Shown here piece after piece: positions 131-30,329 of a stretch of DNA of 38,160 bases. How positions within the stretch are numbered: position 1 is the stretch's first letter; the number at the start of each line of letters is the position of its first letter. Below the pieces are notes generated by a model, which saw only the letters and a list, made by a program, of their open reading frames with translations, was not told where the DNA came from and ran no database searches. The DNA comes from a virus. The translations under genes and the position numbers were made by a program. The DNA is taken from positions 1 to 38,160 of the IMG/VR virus record IMGVR_UViG_3300027985_000961; one strand, given 5' to 3'.

Positions 131-481
131 TCAGAACAGGACGTGCTGATCCGGGTCGCCCTTGGCGCGGACGCGTGCGATGACTTTATAAATGCCACGT
201 ACGCTCATGTTGAATTTGCGCGCCAGGATGTGATGGTTGCGACCGTCGAACTCGTCATAGATCTGCTGGTCGCGCTTGCTCACTCGGTAGTGATGATCCA
301 TTGGAATCGTGAAATTCTGGCCACCCCAATTCTCTGCCAGGTGATTAGCGATCGCGCAGCCGATTTGATCAGCCTGTTCTCGCTCAACACCTAGCTCTTG
401 AGCAATCTCCGCCGCCCGCGAATGAATATCCTCCAGGAGCTCGTGGCGACGTCCTTCCATCGCGGTACCATCACGTGCCAT
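131..481 (-). CDS. mor: Mor-family transcription activator
   Basis: 116 residues. It resembles the Mor/C family of Mu: an N-terminal dimerisation region followed by a C-terminal helix-turn-helix (about residues 83-110, containing ILARKFNMSVRGIYKVIARV). Mor activates the middle promoter in Mu, which drives expression of the late activator C. An AAGGAGG ribosome site lies 6 bases before the ATG at 481. It is the last gene of the leftward early operon, 1 base after gemA, and its stop lies about 80 bases from the phage end proper. No second Mor/C family gene was found in the window, so this protein may itself act at the three late-promoter elements. That last step is inference. Confidence 0.92.
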   Translation of the reverse strand: MARDGTAMEGRRHELLEDIHSRAAEIAQELGVEREQADQIGCAIANHLAENWGGQNFTIPMDHHYRVSKRDQQIYDEFDGRNHHILARKFNMSVRGIYKVIARVRAKGDPDQHVLF

Positions 482-10405: not shown

Positions 10406-10846
10406 ATGGAACTTGTGGTTGATGGAGATAACAACCGAGTCGTTGGTCGCGATATGTATCAGATCCAGCAAATGCAGGGGCGACTACTCACCAAGGATGA
10501 ACGCAAGGAGCTGAACGATCGTGTCCAGGGGATTTCGGATCAATATGGTGACCAGCCGTGGGATATCTGGAAATCTATCCATCGGGCGATCGGCATTGAA
10601 GGAATTGATCAGCTGCATATCGAGCATCGTGACCAGGTGCGCTTTATGCTGGATCTATTGGAGGAACGCGCTCGACTAAAGATGGGTTTTGTACAACCTG
10701 AGCCCAAACGGCCCGCGCCAACTATTTCGCCAGCTACGAGCAAGAAGTCACTTCCTGCTGCTAGATTCATGGACTGGGTGGCTGACTATCCCCGATATTG
10801 CTTTATCGTGGCGTTAATCGGCTTGCTTATTGGAGTGATGTTCTAA
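10406..10846 (+). CDS. Membrane protein with repressor-tail motif and ORF6C-like domain
   Basis: 146 residues. It opens MELVVDGDNNRVVGRDMYQI, repeating the motif at the end of the repressor. The middle (LTKDERKELNDRVQGISDQY; WDIWKSIHRAIGIEGIDQLH; VRFMLDLLEE) resembles the ORF6C/antirepressor C-terminal fold. A proline-rich linker leads to a single C-terminal membrane segment (about 126-145, YCFIVALIGLLIGVMF). AGGGG lies 8 bases before the ATG, only 10 bases after the repressor. It is probably made with the repressor in the lysogen and may bind it or its partner at the membrane. Function is inference. Confidence 0.75.
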   Translation: MELVVDGDNNRVVGRDMYQIQQMQGRLLTKDERKELNDRVQGISDQYGDQPWDIWKSIHRAIGIEGIDQLHIEHRDQVRFMLDLLEERARLKMGFVQPEPKRPAPTISPATSKKSLPAARFMDWVADYPRYCFIVALIGLLIGVMF

Positions 10847-11635: not shown

Positions 11636-11657
11636 TTTTGCCCCCGTTCAAATTACT
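11636..11657 (+). promoter_or_regulatory. Late promoter element 1 (lysis block)
   Basis: First copy of the 22-bp element TTTTGCCCCCG + TTCAAATTACT. It lies 56 bases before the holin ATG. With ATTACT in the -35 place, a 17-base spacer gives GATACT (11675-11680) as a -10-like hexamer. Identical in all 22 bases to copy 2 and differing at one base from copy 3. It corresponds by position to Plys of Mu. Activation by the Mor protein is inferred. Confidence 0.7.
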
Positions 11658-11707
11658 CCTGATCTAATGCCCCCGATACTGGGGGTGTTTCTTTTTCAGA
11701 TCAGGAG
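11656..11707 (+). terminator. Nested hairpins: terminator and RBS-occluding stem
   Basis: An inner stem CCCCC (11670-11674)/GGGGG (11681-11685) followed by TGTTTCTTTTT looks like an intrinsic terminator for transcripts arriving from the repressor cassette. An outer perfect 10-bp stem CTCCTGATCT (11656-11665)/AGATCAGGAG (11698-11707) covers the holin ribosome site AGGAG. RNA starting near 11687 from the late promoter would lack the 5' arm, leaving the site free. Confidence 0.6.
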
Positions 11708-11713
11708 ATCCCC

Positions 11714-12052
11714 ATGCGTATTCCTAAAATTACACTCCCGCGTTTGGCGCTCTGCGCTGCTATTGCGATCGGGTTGCTGGCGGCTATCTGGTTCGTATCG
11801 CCGGCGCAGCTGCCTGTTGTGCTGTACAAAATCGACCTGGTCACGATTGGTGTCGTACTCGGCTACTGGCTGGATCGCACGCTGTTTCCCTATGCGCGAC
11901 CTCATGTGATGTACGGTCATGCCTATGCTGAGGAGGTGCAATCAGGCCACTGCCCGGAATCACGTGATAAACGTTTCTCTGGGGATCTGGCGGCCATACG
12001 CCGCGCTCTGATCGTTATCGCCTGCGTGCTCGGCCTGACCCTGGGGTTGTGA
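11714..12052 (+). CDS. Putative holin
   Basis: 112 residues with three hydrophobic segments: about 10-30 (LALCAAIAIGLLAAIWFV), 35-58 (LPVVLYKIDLVTIGVVLGYW) and 95-112 (ALIVIACVLGLTLGL), separated by a charged loop containing PYARPHVMYG. This matches the putative holin placed just before the endolysin in B3-like phages. It would form the inner-membrane hole that times lysis. AGGAG lies before the ATG, within the outer stem described above. First gene of the late transcript. Confidence 0.8.
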   Translation: MRIPKITLPRLALCAAIAIGLLAAIWFVSPAQLPVVLYKIDLVTIGVVLGYWLDRTLFPYARPHVMYGHAYAEEVQSGHCPESRDKRFSGDLAAIRRALIVIACVLGLTLGL

Positions 12053-19761: not shown

Positions 19762-19838
19762 TCGCTTTTATAAAAAGGTTTGATCTCTACTCCTCGCCTG
19801 CATTTCCGTTTCTACCGCTCAACCCCCTCCGTTTTCGA

Positions 19839-19860
19839 TTTTGCCCCCGTTCAAATTACT
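19839..19860 (+). promoter_or_regulatory. Late promoter element 2 (protease/capsid block)
   Basis: Exact copy of the 22-bp element, 85 bases before the protease start. A 17-base spacer after ATTACT leads to TAGGCT (19878-19883), a weak -10. This is the place of PI in Mu. Short dyads downstream (TGGCG-ATA-CGCCA, 19892-19904, inside CTCAT/ATGAG) lie in the leader. CTCCG (19827-19831) just upstream could pair with the protease ribosome site CGGAG (19934-19938) in read-through RNA, less convincingly than at the other two sites. Confidence 0.7.
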
Positions 19861-19945
19861 GCGCGGCCGTCCGGTCGTAGGCTGACCTCATTGGCGATAC
19901 GCCACCCGATGAGATCCGACCAATCGAACAAACCGGAGTAGCCAT

Positions 19946-21103
19946 GTGAGCGCACTGGAGATCTTCAAAGCCGGCACCCATACCGACATGAACGGCCAGC
20001 GGCTGACCTTTACCGACGAAGACTTGAAAGCGTCGGTTGCTGCATATGACCCGGCAGTGTTTGCTGCACCTCTCGTTGTAGGGCACCCCAAGCTGAACGA
20101 CCCGGCTTATGGATGGCTGGCGTCGGCCGCAACCGATGGCGAACTGATGACCGGTGTCGCCCAAGACGTCGACGCCGAATTCGCCGAGATGGTGAACAAC
20201 AAGCGCTTCCCGAAGATCAGCACCTCATTCTTTCACCCGAACTCACCGAGCAACCCCAAGCCTGGCGTTTGGTACATCCGCCATATCGGCTTTCTCGGAG
20301 CGAAGGCTCCAGCCGTTAAGGGCCTGAAACCCGCCAGCTTCGCCGATAGCGACGAGCAAGACATTTTCACCGTTGAGTTTGCTGCACCTGGTGCTGCTGC
20401 AGGTGCTTGGGCATTAACCCGATTTATGCGGGGGCTGCGTGAGTTCCTGATTGAAGACCGCAACTCAGAAGTCGCCGACAAGGTGATTCCGGATTGGGTG
20501 ATCACCTCCTATGAAGAGGCCACCCGTCACGAAGTAGAAGAGGAAGCCAACGAGGCGCTCCCCTCTGCTGCATTTTCTGATCCCAGCGAGGAGGACGTTA
20601 TGGATCCCAACGCACAGAGTGCCGATTTCGCAGAACGCGAAACGAAGTTGCAAAACCGCGAGGCTGAACTGGCCGAGCGTGAACGCAAGATTAAAGAGCA
20701 GGAGGCGAAGGCGCGCACCGACGATATCGCCTCTTTCGCCGATGAGCTGGTCGATGGCGGCAAGGTGCTACCTCGCGATCGCGAAGGGCTGGTCGCCTTT
20801 ATGGCCTGCCTGGATGACGACGGTGTCGTTGAATTTGCTGATGGCGATCAGACCGTCCAGAAACCCAGTGCAACCTGGTTCCGTGACTTCCTGAACGGTC
20901 TGCCTGAACAGGTCGATTTTGCGGAGCGCGGGGCGCCGGAGGGCGAAGACGAGGTTGGTACTGCCAGCTTCGCCGCGCCGCCGGGGTATGTCGTCGATAA
21001 GACAGGGCTTGAGCTGCACAACAAGGCGCTGACCTACCAGCGTAAACACAACTGCGATTACAGCACTGCGGTAACCGCAGTCGAAAAAGGAGCGCTGTCA
21101 TGA
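19946..21103 (+). CDS. Prohead protease with C-terminal scaffold (Mu gpI-like)
   Basis: 385 residues, GTG start with GGAG 7 bases before. The N-terminal part (EIFKAGTHTDMNGQRLTFTD; PLVVGHPKLNDPAYGWL; FPKISTSFFHPNSPS; VWYIRHIGFLGAKAP) is the Mu I protease family, with a His and Ser typical of this class. A charged coiled coil (RETKLQNREAELAERERKIK) begins the scaffold part (about 219 on). The protease trims the scaffold and capsid proteins in the prohead. An internal start makes the scaffold alone (next entry). Confidence 0.93.
   Translation: MSALEIFKAGTHTDMNGQRLTFTDEDLKASVAAYDPAVFAAPLVVGHPKLNDPAYGWLASAATDGELMTGVAQDVDAEFAEMVNNKRFPKISTSFFHPNSPSNPKPGVWYIRHIGFLGAKAPAVKGLKPASFADSDEQDIFTVEFAAPGAAAGAWALTRFMRGLREFLIEDRNSEVADKVIPDWVITSYEEATRHEVEEEANEALPSAAFSDPSEEDVMDPNAQSADFAERETKLQNREAELAERERKIKEQEAKARTDDIASFADELVDGGKVLPRDREGLVAFMACLDDDGVVEFADGDQTVQKPSATWFRDFLNGLPEQVDFAERGAPEGEDEVGTASFAAPPGYVVDKTGLELHNKALTYQRKHNCDYSTAVTAVEKGALS
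20600..21103 (+). CDS. Nested scaffold protein (gpZ-like), internal start of protease gene
   Basis: Same frame as the protease. An ATG at 20600 is preceded by GAGGAGG at a spacing of 6, a far better ribosome site than expected by chance, and opens MDPNAQSADFAERETKLQNR, just where the coiled coil starts. The product, 167 residues, would be the scaffold, as gpZ is made within gene I in Mu. The scaffold fills the prohead and is cut by the protease. Confidence 0.8.
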   Translation: MDPNAQSADFAERETKLQNREAELAERERKIKEQEAKARTDDIASFADELVDGGKVLPRDREGLVAFMACLDDDGVVEFADGDQTVQKPSATWFRDFLNGLPEQVDFAERGAPEGEDEVGTASFAAPPGYVVDKTGLELHNKALTYQRKHNCDYSTAVTAVEKGALS

Positions 21104-22539: not shown

Positions 22540-22818
22540 ATGAGCACTTATCGCATAGAACGCCCGGTGAAGTGGAATGGTGAGATCCGCAAGAGCGGCA
22601 CCATCGAGACCGAATCCGAGCAGGCGGTAGCGCTGGTGAAGTCCGGCGCGTTGGTCGAGGTCGATCCGGAAACGGCGGCACAGGTGCCGCTGGAGCAGTT
22701 GAAGGTAGGCGATCTCCGCGATGTCGCTGTAACGCTGAAGATCGACGGCGCCGCGGCGATGAAAAAGGCCGACCTGGTGGTTGCTGTTAAGGCGGCTCAA
22801 GCCAAGGCTAACGCATGA
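22540..22818 (+). CDS. Small head-tail region protein (gp35-like position)
   Basis: 92 residues, MSTYRIERPVKWNGEIRKSG and later QAVALVKSGALVEVD and ending KKADLVVAVKAAQAKANA. The first part is like the short beta-domain ('DUF7210-like') found in phage head-tail genes and also seen in the 23788 gene. AGGAGTTGAG precedes the ATG. Probably structural or assembly; not certain. Confidence 0.75.
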   Translation: MSTYRIERPVKWNGEIRKSGTIETESEQAVALVKSGALVEVDPETAAQVPLEQLKVGDLRDVAVTLKIDGAAAMKKADLVVAVKAAQAKANA

Positions 22819-25295: not shown

Positions 25296-25420
25296 AACTC
25301 CATTTCGATTCCGCCTGCCGCCGCGATCGCCGCCAGCGCGCGGATCTGATCTCCGATACCAACGCGGCGGTCTGGGGCGGTCAGGATGTGGAGAAGCTGC
25401 TGCGAGAGCTGAGGAAATAA
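24780..25420 (+). CDS. Frameshift tail chaperone (GT-like product, -1 shift)
   Basis: Reading the G frame to 25145 and then slipping back one base gives a fused product of about 213 residues ending at 25420. The T part has RAAAAKQDDQRTPKAAAGRG, DVRWGDVYAALIANGHNADR, IGTYTERQLKLHFDSACRRD and QDVEKLLRELRK, a soluble helical domain. The frame has no good ribosome site of its own, supporting the fused form. The pair G and GT, in a fixed ratio, is a hallmark of long-tailed phages. Confidence 0.72.
25139..25145 (+). other. -1 ribosomal frameshift heptamer
   Basis: T-TTT-TTC in the G frame (after codons AAC AGC CCT). It has X XXY YYZ form with X=Y=T and allows both tRNAs to re-pair after a one-base slip. 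The shifted codons continue CGT GCG GCA, into the T frame. Confidence 0.65.
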
Positions 25421-25730: not shown

Positions 25731-26117
25731 ATGAAAAAGTTGCTGATGATCGCAGTGGTAGGTGCAGTACTGGCGGGCTGCGGAACCGATGCCGATATCG
25801 CCTCGCGCAACCTGTCCAAGGAGGCTGACGCGTTTCAGATCAACCGCCGGATCGTGTTCTACAACGGGATTACCGACTCCTATATGTTGACCATCGAGGG
25901 GCGCTGCTCGATGGGCAATAGCGACCCATCCCGTCAGCTCAGCGTGACCTGCAAGACCGGATCCGATCAGTATAAAAAGCACTTCCTCGGACTGTCCGAC
26001 AACGTGACCTATTTCGTCGAGCAGCTGGAGAGTGCCAACGTGAGCACCTATCACTACAAGGTGATATTCCGACCGGAATCGATCGCGCCTGATGTGGATC
26101 TGAAGACGAGTTTGTAG
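25731..26117 (+). CDS. Beta-sandwich lipoprotein, probable superinfection exclusion
   Basis: 128 residues from the ATG at 25731 (MKKLLMIAVVGAVLAGCGTD), with AGGAGAG just before it. Signal peptide and lipobox LAGC give a mature lipoprotein with N-terminal Cys17. The body (IASRNLSKEADAFQINRRIV; FYNGITDSYMLTIEGRCSMG; KKHFLGLSDNVTYFVEQLES; HYKVIFRPESIAPDVD) matches a lipoprotein family common as a moron in temperate phages. It would sit on the inner face of the outer membrane, likely altering host receptors or blocking phage DNA entry. Function is from family and position. Confidence 0.85.
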   Translation: MKKLLMIAVVGAVLAGCGTDADIASRNLSKEADAFQINRRIVFYNGITDSYMLTIEGRCSMGNSDPSRQLSVTCKTGSDQYKKHFLGLSDNVTYFVEQLESANVSTYHYKVIFRPESIAPDVDLKTSL

Positions 26118-26208: not shown

Positions 26209-26487
26209 ATGGCAATGACAAAAAGACAGCTTACAGCTGCGCTGAGAAAAATGGCTCGTCTGAGCAGTGAGTTCTGTGAAATTCAGGCGCAGGTAGTTGA
26301 GCACAGTATCGAGGTTTACGGTCACGAACCGAGTGCTGTTGATAATGATGAGTTTATCGATGCGTGCACTGGTGCAAATGGGGTGTGTACTGGAATGACG
26401 GCTGACGAATTTGATAGATCGATGCGTGAGTCGTTAAAGATGATGGGGCTTATAACACCCCAATTAAGGGGTATAACTTTTCGGTAG
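26209..26487 (+). CDS. Hypothetical moron gene, AT-richer than neighbours
   Basis: 92 residues: MAMTKRQLTAALRKMARLSS, EFCEIQAQVVEHSIEVYGHE, DEFIDACTGANGVCTGMTAD, EFDRSMRESLKMMGLITPQL. GAGG precedes the ATG. Base content and codon use are less GC-rich than in the flanking late genes, and hairpin 26139-26156 (GGCCCGC/GCGGGTC) and a 320-base gap surround it, a moron layout. Helical, soluble; no family known. Confidence 0.6.
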   Translation: MAMTKRQLTAALRKMARLSSEFCEIQAQVVEHSIEVYGHEPSAVDNDEFIDACTGANGVCTGMTADEFDRSMRESLKMMGLITPQLRGITFR

Positions 26488-26736
26488 TTTCGGAGGAAAT
26501 GTACCAACCGTGGCAGGCGACCGGTACGCTGAAGTTGCTTATCAGTGGCTAAGACTGTGCAATTGCATAACACTCGTCCTGGCCCACGTTCATATCCTTG
26601 TTGCGCCTACCCGCGTTAAGCCCAAGGTACGTGGTTTGCCCCTCGCCAAGGGGTGTTTAAGACTACTGTAAGAAACGCTTCCAGTGTGCGTCCCTCCTTA
26701 ACTGCATAAATGCAGATCCATCGAATCTACATCACT
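26488..26736 (+). other. Non-coding gap before late element 3
   Basis: About 250 bases with no convincing coding frame. It is AT-richer than the surrounding region. A short hairpin CCCCT (26639-26643)/AGGGG (26649-26653) followed by TGTTTAAG may be a weak terminator. It could include the 3' end of a moron insertion. Confidence 0.45.
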
Positions 26737-26758
26737 TTTTGCCCTCGTTCAAATTACT
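26737..26758 (+). promoter_or_regulatory. Late promoter element 3 (tape measure block)
   Basis: Third copy of the element, TTTTGCCCTCG + TTCAAATTACT, one change (C to T) from the others. 49 bases before the tape-measure ATG, the position of PP in Mu. A 17-base spacer reaches CACCAT (26776-26781), a poor -10. Shared upstream context beyond the 22 bases is not obvious. Confidence 0.68.
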
Positions 26759-26777
26759 CCCCGCCTGACCAATGCCA

Positions 26778-26804
26778 CCATCACCTGAGTAATCCAGGTG
26801 GTGG
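26778..26804 (+). promoter_or_regulatory. RBS-occluding stem at tape-measure start
   Basis: CCATCACCTG (26778-26787) pairs with CAGGTGGTGG (26795-26804) in a 10-bp stem with one T-G pair and a 7-base loop, 3 bases before the ATG at 26808. The 3' arm includes the ribosome site AGGTGG. RNA starting about 26788 would lose the 5' arm. Confidence 0.6.
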
Positions 26805-26807
26805 ACC

Positions 26808-29800
26808 ATGGCCAACAAAAACCTCGAACTCGCACTAAAAATCAAAGCCGACCTGACGCAAGCCCGGCGTGAGGTCGACCAGCTGGCGGTTGCATTGGAG
26901 GAGACCACTGCCGCCGCCACAGGTGTCGATCGGGCCAGCCAGGGCGCCGCTCGCGGCTATACCGCTGTGAGCACGGCGGGACAGCGCGCTACGACCACCA
27001 CCCGCGGCTACAACGCGGCCACCGCGGCCGCCACCGGCGCCACCCGCCAGTACGATACCGCGCTCGAATCCGCCTCAGCCTCTACCCAGCAGCTCAACTC
27101 AACCACCCAGAACCTGGGCGGCGGGCTGAACTCCATTGCGGCCTCTGTGCGGGCCGTCAGTCTGACCATCGCCGCCGGGTTCGGCCTGCGCGAGATCGTG
27201 CAGTCGGCCGATGCCTGGACCGCCTACGAAAACAGACTGCGCCTGGTCACCACCAGCCAGGCTGCACTGACGCAGTCCAGCGCCGACGTCTACGCGATCG
27301 CCCGCAGCACCAGCCAGCAGCTCGACAGTACCGCCGCGGTCTACCAGCGGTTCGCCCAGAACGCCGAGCGCCTGAACATCACACAGCAGCAAACCGCTCA
27401 GCTGACCCGTACCGTCAGCCAGGCGATCGCGATCTCCGGCGGTTCGACCGCGAGCGCCGAGGCGGCCACGATCCAGTTCGGTCAGGCGCTGGCCAGCGGC
27501 GTACTGCGTGGCGAGGAGTTCAACTCGGTCATGGAACAGGCGCCGGGGCTGGCGATGGCGTTGGCGGAGGGGCTGAGTGTCGATATCGGTAAGCTGCGCG
27601 AAATGGCAAACGATGGCCAACTGACGGCGGATGTGTTGGTGAATGCCCTCGGTGCCGCGGCCGCAAGCGTCAACGATCAGTTCGAAACCCGCGTGAAAAC
27701 CATTGCGCAGGCGGCAACGGAGTTCGATACCGCGTTCACCCGTATCATCGGCACGTTGTCGAGTGGCAGCGGTGTTGGCCAACAGATAGCGGCGGTGATC
27801 TCCGGTCTGGCGGACATGCTGGATGCGATGTCGAACAACCTGGATATCGTCGAAGCGGCACTCGAAACCGCGTTGATTCTGACTGCCGGCCGCGTGGTGG
27901 CAGCGCTCGCCAATATGACCACCGAGGGCCTGAAGCAGATCCTGGTACAGAAAGCCGCAACAACGGCTGCAGCTGAAAAGGCAGTGGCTGATGAGAGCGC
28001 TGCTGTTGCTGCAAAAACGGCGGCCGTGGCCGATCTGGAGCGTTCCCGGGCAGCGGTTACGGCGGCTGAGGCCAATGTAGCTGCAACGGCTGCCGAGGCT
28101 CGGCGTACTGCCGGTATGGCCGCATCGAGCACCGGATTGACCGCGAAAGCGGCGCTGGATGCTAAGGCGGCGGCCGCTACGGCTGCGCATACAGCTGCTG
28201 AGGCTCGTTTGACCGTGGCATTGGAGGCCCGTGCCGTCGCCAGCGAAGCGGTGGCGGTTACCACTGTAGCGGTTACTCAGGCAACGGCCGCGGCAGCAAC
28301 GGCGATGACTGCTGCCAGCGTCGCCACCAGTTTGCTGACGCGCGCGATCATGGGGCTGACTGTCATCGGTGACCGGGTGCTGGCAATGCTCGGCGGACCG
28401 CTCGGCATCGTTGTAGCGATCGGGCTCGCTGCAACAGCATTTCTCGACTTCGGTAACGATGCCGAGAGTGGCATGGAAAAAGCCGCGGTGGCTAGCGAAC
28501 AGGCCAGCGTGCGGATCCGCAACGCCACCCGCGAGATGATCCAGAGCCTGGATATCGGTGATATCGGGGCCGCGTCATTCGATCAGCTCAGTGGTGGTAT
28601 AGCGCAGCTGGAGCAGCAGCTGCAGAAAGCCCGCGAGACGCGCGACTATATCCAACAGCTCAACGACTCCGACGTGCCGCTCTGGGATGCCAGCCTGCCC
28701 ACCCTGGATCAGGCCAACGAGAAGGTCCGCTCTCTGGAATCGGCCGTCGCCAAACTGCGTGCGGAGCAGAACGGATCCCGATTCGACAGCGTCCGGAACG
28801 GCCAGGAATACCTGGACTCCCTGGAGCAGCAAGGCGAGCGCCTGCAGAACCTATCCGAGCGCGAGAAGGCGCTGCGCTATCTGCGCGAACAGTCGATCGA
28901 TACCAGCTCCGAACTGGGTCGGCAGATCTTGGCCCGAGTTGATGCGAACGAAAAGCTGAAAGCGGCAAACGACGAGGCTGCCGAATCGGATCGGCAGGCC
29001 AGGCAGGCCGCAGACGATGCGTTGCGGACCGCTGAACAGCGGGCTCAACAGCAGCTGTCATTCGTTCAGCAACTGGAACGCCAGGCGGATCTGCAGGGTA
29101 AATCGACTGCCGAGGTGCGCGAATACACCATCGCCGAGCGTGGGCTGTCGGGCGAGCTGTTGGTGCGCGCCCGGGCGGCGGCCGCGGCGCTGCAGGCGCA
29201 GGAGGATCTTAATGCAGCGATGCGTGACGCCCGCGACATGGACCGCATCCGCATTCAGTTGCTGGAGGCGTCTGGCGACACACTCGGTGCCCGCTCGGCT
29301 CAGCTGCAGCAGCAGTTCGGCGAGCTGCTCGATCGGCTGAACGCCCGCGGCGATACCGCCGGCGCAGCCCTGGTCAATAACCTGATCGACCTCGATCTCG
29401 CGCGCACGCGCCTCGCGCAGCTGCAGTCCGTCATCGATGACGCGATGGGTGCCAACAGTCGCGCCGAGGAGTCGATCAACATCCAGCAGGACGCCGGTGT
29501 GATTACCGAAATGGAGGCACGCGAGCGCATCCTGGAACTGCACCGCCAGACCTACGCCGTACTGCAACAGCAGCGGCCGCTGATCGAGGAGATGGCGCAG
29601 CAGCCCGGCGCGATCGGCGAATCAGCCCGCGTGATGCTGGAGCAGCTCGATAACCAGGCTGCACAGCTGCAATCAACCCTGACACTGCTCGGTACCACGC
29701 TGAAAGACGGCCTGGAGTCGGGTTTTTCGTCGGCCATCAAGGGGCTCGCCGACGGCACGATGACGCTGCGCGACGCGGCCGTTGAACTGATCTCATCCAT

Positions 29801-30329
29801 CGGCGACGCGATGATCGACATGCTGGCCCGTGTGATGGCTCAGCAGGCATTCAGCGGCCTGTCGACGATGTTCGGCGGTACCAGTTTCGGCGCGCTGTTC
29901 GGATTCTCAACCGGCGGCCACGTCCAGGGCCCCGGTACCGCCACGTCAGACAGCATTCCGGCGCGACTCTCCAACAACGAGTTTGTCACCCGCGCCGCCG
30001 TCGTCACCCAGCCCGGCGCTTTGCCGTTTCTGGAGGATTTCAACAGCCGTGGCATGGTCGCCCTGGACGACTGGGCCGGTCGAGTCCGCCATGCCACCGG
30101 CGGCCTCGCCGGTATCCCGGCGCCGCAGATGGTCAACCCCACGTTGAACAGCGGATCGATCACCCAGCCATCCGCGGTCGGCTCCACCGTCCAAAACGCC
30201 GTCAACCTCTACGCCATCCAAGATCCTGCCGACGTCGCGAACATGGCCTGGGGCAAGCAGGGTCAGGCGAATTTCATGGTGTATCTCAGCCGCAACAGGC
30301 AAACAATCAGGCAGGAGTTGGAGCTGTAG
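26808..30329 (+). CDS. Tape measure protein
   Basis: 1173 residues, the longest product, setting tail length. N-terminal coiled coil (LALKIKADLTQARREVDQLA), tape-measure domain (about 110-290, FGLREIVQSADAWTAYENRL; GEEFNSVMEQAPGLAMALAE), an Ala-rich helical stretch (about 380-505, VAAKTAAVADLERSRAAVTA), hydrophobic segments (LGIVVAIGLAATAFLDFG) and a C-terminal part with GYVQGPGT-type GGHVQGPGTATSDSIPARLS. The C-terminus may enter the host membrane during injection. Translation may be held by the 26778-26804 stem. A typical tail length cannot be worked out from sequence alone. Confidence 0.95.
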   Translation: MANKNLELALKIKADLTQARREVDQLAVALEETTAAATGVDRASQGAARGYTAVSTAGQRATTTTRGYNAATAAATGATRQYDTALESASASTQQLNSTTQNLGGGLNSIAASVRAVSLTIAAGFGLREIVQSADAWTAYENRLRLVTTSQAALTQSSADVYAIARSTSQQLDSTAAVYQRFAQNAERLNITQQQTAQLTRTVSQAIAISGGSTASAEAATIQFGQALASGVLRGEEFNSVMEQAPGLAMALAEGLSVDIGKLREMANDGQLTADVLVNALGAAAASVNDQFETRVKTIAQAATEFDTAFTRIIGTLSSGSGVGQQIAAVISGLADMLDAMSNNLDIVEAALETALILTAGRVVAALANMTTEGLKQILVQKAATTAAAEKAVADESAAVAAKTAAVADLERSRAAVTAAEANVAATAAEARRTAGMAASSTGLTAKAALDAKAAAATAAHTAAEARLTVALEARAVASEAVAVTTVAVTQATAAAATAMTAASVATSLLTRAIMGLTVIGDRVLAMLGGPLGIVVAIGLAATAFLDFGNDAESGMEKAAVASEQASVRIRNATREMIQSLDIGDIGAASFDQLSGGIAQLEQQLQKARETRDYIQQLNDSDVPLWDASLPTLDQANEKVRSLESAVAKLRAEQNGSRFDSVRNGQEYLDSLEQQGERLQNLSEREKALRYLREQSIDTSSELGRQILARVDANEKLKAANDEAAESDRQARQAADDALRTAEQRAQQQLSFVQQLERQADLQGKSTAEVREYTIAERGLSGELLVRARAAAAALQAQEDLNAAMRDARDMDRIRIQLLEASGDTLGARSAQLQQQFGELLDRLNARGDTAGAALVNNLIDLDLARTRLAQLQSVIDDAMGANSRAEESINIQQDAGVITEMEARERILELHRQTYAVLQQQRPLIEEMAQQPGAIGESARVMLEQLDNQAAQLQSTLTLLGTTLKDGLESGFSSAIKGLADGTMTLRDAAVELISSIGDAMIDMLARVMAQQAFSGLSTMFGGTSFGALFGFSTGGHVQGPGTATSDSIPARLSNNEFVTRAAVVTQPGALPFLEDFNSRGMVALDDWAGRVRHATGGLAGIPAPQMVNPTLNSGSITQPSAVGSTVQNAVNLYAIQDPADVANMAWGKQGQANFMVYLSRNRQTIRQELEL

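Follow-up and report, generated by a model that had tools for sequence, protein, structure and literature searches.

The hairpin immediately upstream of the tape-measure gene of this phage probably acts as a lock on the ribosome binding site (RBS) that is specific to read-through RNA, and the same logic probably holds at the holin and protease promoters and at most of the late promoters tested in related transposable phages; we put the probability of this reading at roughly 75%. In the proposed mechanism, RNA entering from upstream would carry both arms of the hairpin, fold, and hide the ribosome site together with the region beside the AUG. A Mor-type activator bound at 26737-26758 would bring RNA polymerase to a -10 box within the 5' arm, and transcription would begin near 26788, where this arm ends. 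The resulting late mRNA would lack the 5' arm and present an open ribosome site, and the tape measure would be translated only from its own late promoter.

The window, by which we mean the whole stretch of 38,160 nucleotides that was analysed, is a virus record of 38 kb from IMG/VR, and its genes are ordered as in B3-like transposable phages. At the left end, the gene of a Mor-family activator lies on the minus strand, followed by leftward early genes, a rightward repressor-like gene and then the holin, terminase, protease, head, tail and tape-measure genes, the terminase and head genes being named by position. The following features frame the analysis:

131-481, minus strand: Mor-family transcription activator (PF08765, E 1.4e-33), at the place of the 'late transcriptional activator' of B3
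11714-12052, plus strand: holin gene (PF13272, E 2.8e-27; phrog_1528)
19946-21103, plus strand: head maturation protease gene with a GTG start (phrog_976, E 1.8e-116)
26457-26472, plus strand: weak terminator-like hairpin at the end of an upstream 92-aa ORF (pattern match only)
26808-30329, plus strand: tape measure protein gene, 1173 aa (PF20155, E 4.9e-58; PHROG tape-measure families)

The stretch of about 250 nt between the 92-aa ORF and the activator element of the tape-measure gene (26488-26736) holds no recognised gene, and a 53-aa ORF inside it is without a PHROG match. Two other small genes of this part of the genome were noted in passing. A 145-aa ORF at 25680-26117 matches Pfam Phage_VG64 (E 1e-55). 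Over 101 of its bases (about 25969-26069) it shares 87% identity with genes of Gordonia phages, which carry the annotation hypothetical or recombination directionality factor; for a Mu-like phage, such a connection to actinophages is odd. At 22540-22818, a small late protein of 92 aa carries a Rho_N (HeH-like) domain (E 1.1e-9).

Upstream of the tape-measure start, CCATCACCTG (26778-26787) pairs with CAGGTGGTGG (26795-26804) to give a stem of 10 bp with a 7-nt loop, in which U26781-G26801 is the sole wobble; RNAfold returns the same stem. The initial annotation had described a 10-bp stem with one wobble pair that hides AGGTGG three bases from the ATG. The stem and the burial of AGGTGG within it are borne out by the sequence and the fold, whereas the spacing has to be corrected: it is the end of the stem that lies 3 nt from the ATG, while AGGTGG lies 6 nt from it. 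The parts of the region are arranged as follows, all on the plus strand:

26737-26758, plus strand: activator-type element 3, TTTTGCCCTCGTTCAAATTACT, one of three copies in the window and conserved before the tape-measure gene in relatives
26776-26781, plus strand: predicted -10 box CACCAT of the late promoter, placed by its fixed spacing and by the A and T at positions 19 and 23 after the element
26778-26787, plus strand: 5' arm of the putative RBS-hiding hairpin, overlapping the -10 box and the stretch before +1
26788, plus strand: predicted transcription start (+1), within about 2 nt, seven bases past the T of the -10 box
26795-26804, plus strand: 3' arm of the hairpin, containing the ribosome site (sequence, RNAfold)
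26796-26801, plus strand: Shine-Dalgarno-like AGGTGG

The folding energy of the 121 nt around the hairpin, taken as a whole, is not unusual (z -0.57). Comparing the upstream arm with shuffles of its letters in RNAduplex gave a borderline result for the tape-measure gene (p 0.064) and no significance for the holin and protease of the window; this is a weak test, since a shuffled arm may pair anywhere, and the opening cost of the ribosome site and a permutation of upstream segments were used instead. The opening cost of the tape-measure site with its own 40 nt upstream is matched by about 1% of dinucleotide shuffles of these nucleotides (p 0.010). The stem is kept in all five distinct aligned sequences from the window and its relatives, with 42 of 47 cells paired (89.4%). 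Covariation, in families limited to few and too similar sequences, amounts to one one-sided U-G/U-A change and no compensatory pair for the tape measure, and for the holin to two compensatory pairs, which 203 of 500 shuffles equal and which are thus not significant.

The 22-bp activator-type element, TTTTGCCC[CT]CGTTCAAATTACT, occurs in exactly three copies in the window, where none is expected by chance. Besides the copy before the tape-measure gene, these are:

11636-11657, plus strand: element 1, before the holin gene
19839-19860, plus strand: element 2, before the head maturation protease gene

Relatives have the element at the same genes. In B3 and its relatives, the dyad element of the holin, protease and tape-measure genes is a different one. 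The Mor-family gene at 131-481 is a candidate for the activator of all three late promoters. Of 27 copies, which were selected by a context rule and are not independent of each other, 24 have A at position 19 after the 22-mer and T at position 23; the three misses comprise one copy shifted by 2 nt and two matches, in other contigs, that look like chance. The information content at these positions is 1.39 and 1.62 bits, with 0.75 in the next-best column. We read this pattern as the signature of a -10 box (A-11, T-7), which places the +1 of the tape-measure promoter seven bases past the T, at 26788. The dyad, TTTGccC..GttCAAA, is then centred at -42.5 from the predicted start, and the activator dyad of Mu Pm is centred at -43.5 in the account of that promoter in PMC4287176.

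The spacing rule can be calibrated on phage Mu, the late promoters of which were mapped by S1 nuclease and are represented in PMC4461284 (Table 1) by 92-mers that carry 20 nt past the start. Counting back 20 nt in these oligonucleotides puts +1 at 10456 (lys), 18030 (I) and 27340 (P), if the last one or two letters of each are taken as cloning bases. Counting seven bases from the T of the -10 boxes TAGACT, CAAACT and TATCCT gives exactly these three starts. We had at first placed the -10 box 6-11 positions past the 22-mer, where late RNA would have kept the stem as a 5'-terminal hairpin; this was abandoned once it emerged that conservation in the phage copies falls on positions 18-23. The -10 element of T4 late promoters, TATAAATA, which is read by gp55, is absent from 26700-26810 of the window.

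The effect of the start position on the ribosome site was quantified as the cost of opening positions -16 to +3 around the start codon, computed for RNA with 80 nt upstream and for RNA from the predicted start. For the tape measure the cost falls from 19.8 kcal/mol in read-through RNA (control mean 8.6) to 7.4 kcal/mol in late RNA, for the holin from 16.9 to 6.5 kcal/mol and for the protease from 13.4 to 5.6 kcal/mol. The controls were 130 further gene starts, taken from the window, B3, PhiKM and Fc02 and each given a pseudo-start 25 nt upstream; their gain averages 0.37, the two highest being 9.6 and 5.6, and the gains of the tape measure, holin and protease are reached by 0, 0 and 1 of the 130, respectively. 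When RNA is begun 20 nt before every one of the 1055 ATGs of the window, on both strands and in any frame, the tape-measure ATG ranks second for gain. An ATG at 25386, just past the tail chaperone gene, has a computed gain of 12.8, above that of the tape-measure ATG, and may be another regulated start or a product of chance. With the tape-measure start shifted upstream by up to 4 nt the site is still mostly open (9.8), while a shift of 10 nt closes it (18.1), so the case for a lock hinges on where the start lies.

With a start at 26788, all 11 predicted pairs into positions -20 to -1 are gone. The initial annotation had predicted a late RNA that starts near 26788 and drops the 5' arm, and had likened the design to that at the holin. 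Computational support for these proposals comes from the conserved -10 box and the rule calibrated on Mu, from the lost pairs and from the holin opening cost, and the design extends beyond them to the protease and many relatives. At the holin and protease the parts are, again on the plus strand:

11656-11665, plus strand: 5' arm of the holin RBS hairpin, CTCCTGATCT, which a start at the predicted 11687 removes
11675-11680, plus strand: predicted holin -10 box GATACT at the conserved position, with a predicted +1 at 11687
11698-11707, plus strand: 3' arm of the holin hairpin, AGATCAGGAG, bearing the holin Shine-Dalgarno (fold)
19827-19840, plus strand: 5' arm of a bulged long-range stem at the protease, CTCCGTTTTCGATT (fold)
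19878-19883, plus strand: predicted protease -10 box TAGGCT at the conserved position, with a predicted +1 at 19890
19922-19938, plus strand: 3' arm at the protease, AATCGAACAAACCGGAG, bearing the protease Shine-Dalgarno (fold)

The protease effect is present with 80 nt of upstream RNA and absent with 40 nt.

The recurrence of the design was assessed in 21 promoter groups, each represented by its first listed member. L104, for which no ORF start was found, and L196, with an ambiguous start, were removed before the counts; near-duplicates and UMP151, the sequences of which equal those of Fc02, were not entered, and proteases with an ATG at +1, having no leader, were excluded from the hairpin counts. 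For PhiKM, Fc02 and phiSHP3, the promoters had been chosen before the test, by visual inspection of the sequence ahead of annotated starts. The gain averages 8.2, with 17 of the 21 groups above the 95th percentile of the controls (Mann-Whitney p 4e-10); L214, L102, L180 and phiSHP3 orf22 show no clear effect. Starting at the predicted +1 loses some of the pairs into -20 to -1 in 31 of 32 promoters and more than half in 30, the exceptions being a Gilliamella prophage (L127, 8 of 17) and phiSHP3 (0 of 9).

Accessible late leaders could also result from selection for openness by itself, with the upstream complementarity arising by chance or from local composition. Late leaders are indeed more open than ordinary starts (5.8 vs 8.2, p 0.001). 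Open leaders alone cannot account for the pairing with their own upstream sequence: with each group's own 40-nt upstream segment the sum is 286.9, against 162.9 (sd 11.1) when segments are permuted among promoters of the same kind, the former value being matched in none of 50,000 permutations over the 21 groups, and complementarity across a sliding break peaks 5 nt past the predicted start. This peak places the start near the 3' end of the 5' arm, and we consider the by-product explanation very unlikely. Somewhat less improbable, though still unlikely, is that the inverted repeat acts as DNA, as a repressor site or a shape signal over the -10 box and start, with the RNA hairpin being incidental. 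The repeat does overlap the core promoter, and in type B proteases the -10 box has GCCGCC/GGCGGC around it; however, the arm sequences differ from gene to gene and from phage to phage, unlike the shared activator site, and the conserved feature is the pairing of each with its own leader and with the ribosome site.

The hairpin might instead end read-through RNA, as a transcription terminator, or process it, as an RNase III site. A T run follows the stem in the Gilliamella prophage L127, the inner stem of the window holin and Pasteurella 9690, but the tape-measure 3' arm is followed by ACCATGG rather than by a T run, and a terminator scan of the window did not report this hairpin; we give the explanation only a slim chance. 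In the com-mom system of Mu, an RNA stem conceals a late gene's start, remains part of the mRNA and is opened by Com. The likeness lies in the hidden late-gene start, and the difference in the start site, which here would remove one arm. A hairpin retained in late RNA and opened by such a trans-acting factor is the explanation to which we assign the slimmest chance of all. B3 has a Com-like gene shortly before its tape measure, but none of the three ORFs tested between tail chaperone and tape measure in the window has a Pfam Com match (for the 53-aa ORF before the tape measure, the check covered PHROGs alone), the hairpins have no sequence in common, and Mu com itself shows no RBS-opening effect.

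The design also recurs outside the family. Mu I has a gain of 11.1, reached by 0 of the 130 controls, and Mu lys one of 6.0, reached by 1 of 130; the start of Mu P lies about 350 nt before its gene, outside the leader test. In PhiKM, a BcepMu-like coliphage, and Pasteurella AFS-2018a, the spaced motif TTAA[AT]ATC-N19-nAnnnT is matched at 7 places, each of them immediately ahead of a gene start; of these, 5 have arm-losing hairpins (gains 6.8-9.6) and 2 have an ATG at +1/+2. The Pasteurella and Shewanella phages served as later hold-outs, their leaders having been seen before the PhiKM motif rule was applied, and the Shewanella phage has no match to this motif. In a promoter-free ranking, the late leaders come 2nd, 8th and 14th of 49 in the Shewanella phage, the lysozyme leader being 2nd, and 2nd, 6th, 17th and 36th of 42 in the Pasteurella phage; the tape-measure starts of these two phages rank only 14th of 49 and 17th of 42. 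Leptolyngbya phage Lsp-JY19, in which no element was recognised, and Stenotrophomonas phage Bhz63 are outside the tested set.

Some late genes would have no leader to lock. The type B proteases have an ATG at the predicted +1 or +2 in all nine copies, preceded by GGCGGC or GGCGGT, and genes of MP22, phiSHP3 and Fc02 with similar sequence likewise have their ATG at the predicted +1 or +2. Judged from the letters, such genes are candidate leaderless phage mRNAs: the protease in B3, Fc02, MP22 and phiSHP3, and a baseplate gene, which shows this arrangement in PhiKM as well as in a Pasteurella phage. The ATGs of these candidates, with no Shine-Dalgarno seen between them and the predicted +1, lie at L141 (19887), L142 (19300), L143 (9627 and 18652), L236 (11653), L237 (17272) and L241 (28253). 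Like a locked one, a leaderless start would be of use only on RNA begun at that promoter. In the type B tape-measure promoters (L141 26818-26900, L017, L146, L147, L193), a (GC)n tract, ACGCGCGCGCG, is conserved in the interval from the activator dyad to the -10 box GAGGAT, and the leaders of these promoters have no obvious Shine-Dalgarno. In L106 and the Gilliamella prophage L127, two element copies stand head to head, one of them preceding a gene whose stem has a T run and then the ATG.

The mechanism itself is already known from T4, Aeh1 and the sigG gene of Bacillus subtilis, and what is notable here is its apparent generality. PMC3014915 and PMC2988022 list T4 e (lysozyme), soc, 49, I-TevI and segB as well as Aeh1 mobE as genes of this kind, with a 100-fold effect for gene e according to the review. 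In this arrangement, the ribosome site is buried when the long early RNA folds, and a late promoter inside the region of the 5' strand yields late RNA that is without this strand and is translated. Likewise, the tape-measure ribosome site is computed to be sequestered in the long RNA, and the start of its own late promoter is predicted to exclude the 5' arm. T4 differs in having its own late sigma factor (gp55) and in that the genes concerned are scattered, whereas here promoters of the Mor/C-activated type are involved, most late operons of the tested phages have the design, and a leaderless alternative exists alongside. For sigG, PMC5942855 proposes that translation of spoIIG read-through RNA is blocked by a large hairpin, one that RNA begun at the promoter of sigG itself is unable to form; it concerns a single bacterial sporulation gene rather than a phage, and a long hairpin of 20 or more pairs. 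The Mor/C-activated promoters of Mu share with those of the window a dyad (near -43 in Mu) upstream of the -10 box, a -10 box with fixed A/T and a Mor-family gene, here the PF08765 activator gene; the sections of PMC4287176 and PMC4461284 consulted deal with promoter activation only and mention no RBS hairpin at lys or I. In the open literature on Mu-like phages, surveyed by titles and the beginnings of abstracts and including parts of PMC4378225 and PMC9239132, an RBS lock in transposable phages was not found described; the B3 and D3112 genome papers and the original Mu mapping papers lie outside this scope.

As to the purpose of such a lock, the initial annotation had suggested that it keeps the tape measure in step with its chaperones, an idea that does not agree with the timing reported in the RNA-seq study of the B3-like phage Fc02 (PMC9936078, section 3.2). 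There, the forward clusters adjoin; the second late cluster is the earliest to appear, the first and third come later and in synchrony, and a terminator seems to limit the second. By our own assignment from gene order, the tail chaperone would fall in the second cluster and the tape measure in the third, so a lock would uncouple the tape measure from the chaperone RNA. Timing and terminator together argue instead for insulating each late operon. The weak terminator before the tape-measure gene may end the RNA of the second cluster, and read-through RNA may therefore be scarce. A simpler purpose would be to prevent expression of late genes from read-through RNA of any kind, in the lysogen as well. 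For the tape measure, the source of such RNA would be the preceding structural cluster, and for the holin, the rightward RNA that could reach the gene in the lysogen would be the repressor transcript; in Fc02 the latter spans repc and e4 and adjoins the late clusters.

At even odds, we propose more broadly that Mu-like phages check the origin of a transcript, nearly every late operon being translatable only from RNA of its own activator-dependent promoter, by means of either an arm-losing RBS hairpin or a leaderless AUG at +1, which would be interchangeable. If this is true, the lysis and virion genes would be silent on RNA of the repressor operon, on upstream late RNA and on host read-through RNA, a silence that matters for a phage inserting at many places in the host genome. 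A classic T4 mechanism would thereby be extended to another large group of phages, in which it may be the rule and not the exception, and the location of the late start sites would be explained. Late promoters and start codons, leaderless ones included, could then be fixed by annotators from the sequence, and phage Mu, a long-used model with mapped late starts, would offer a ready test bed.
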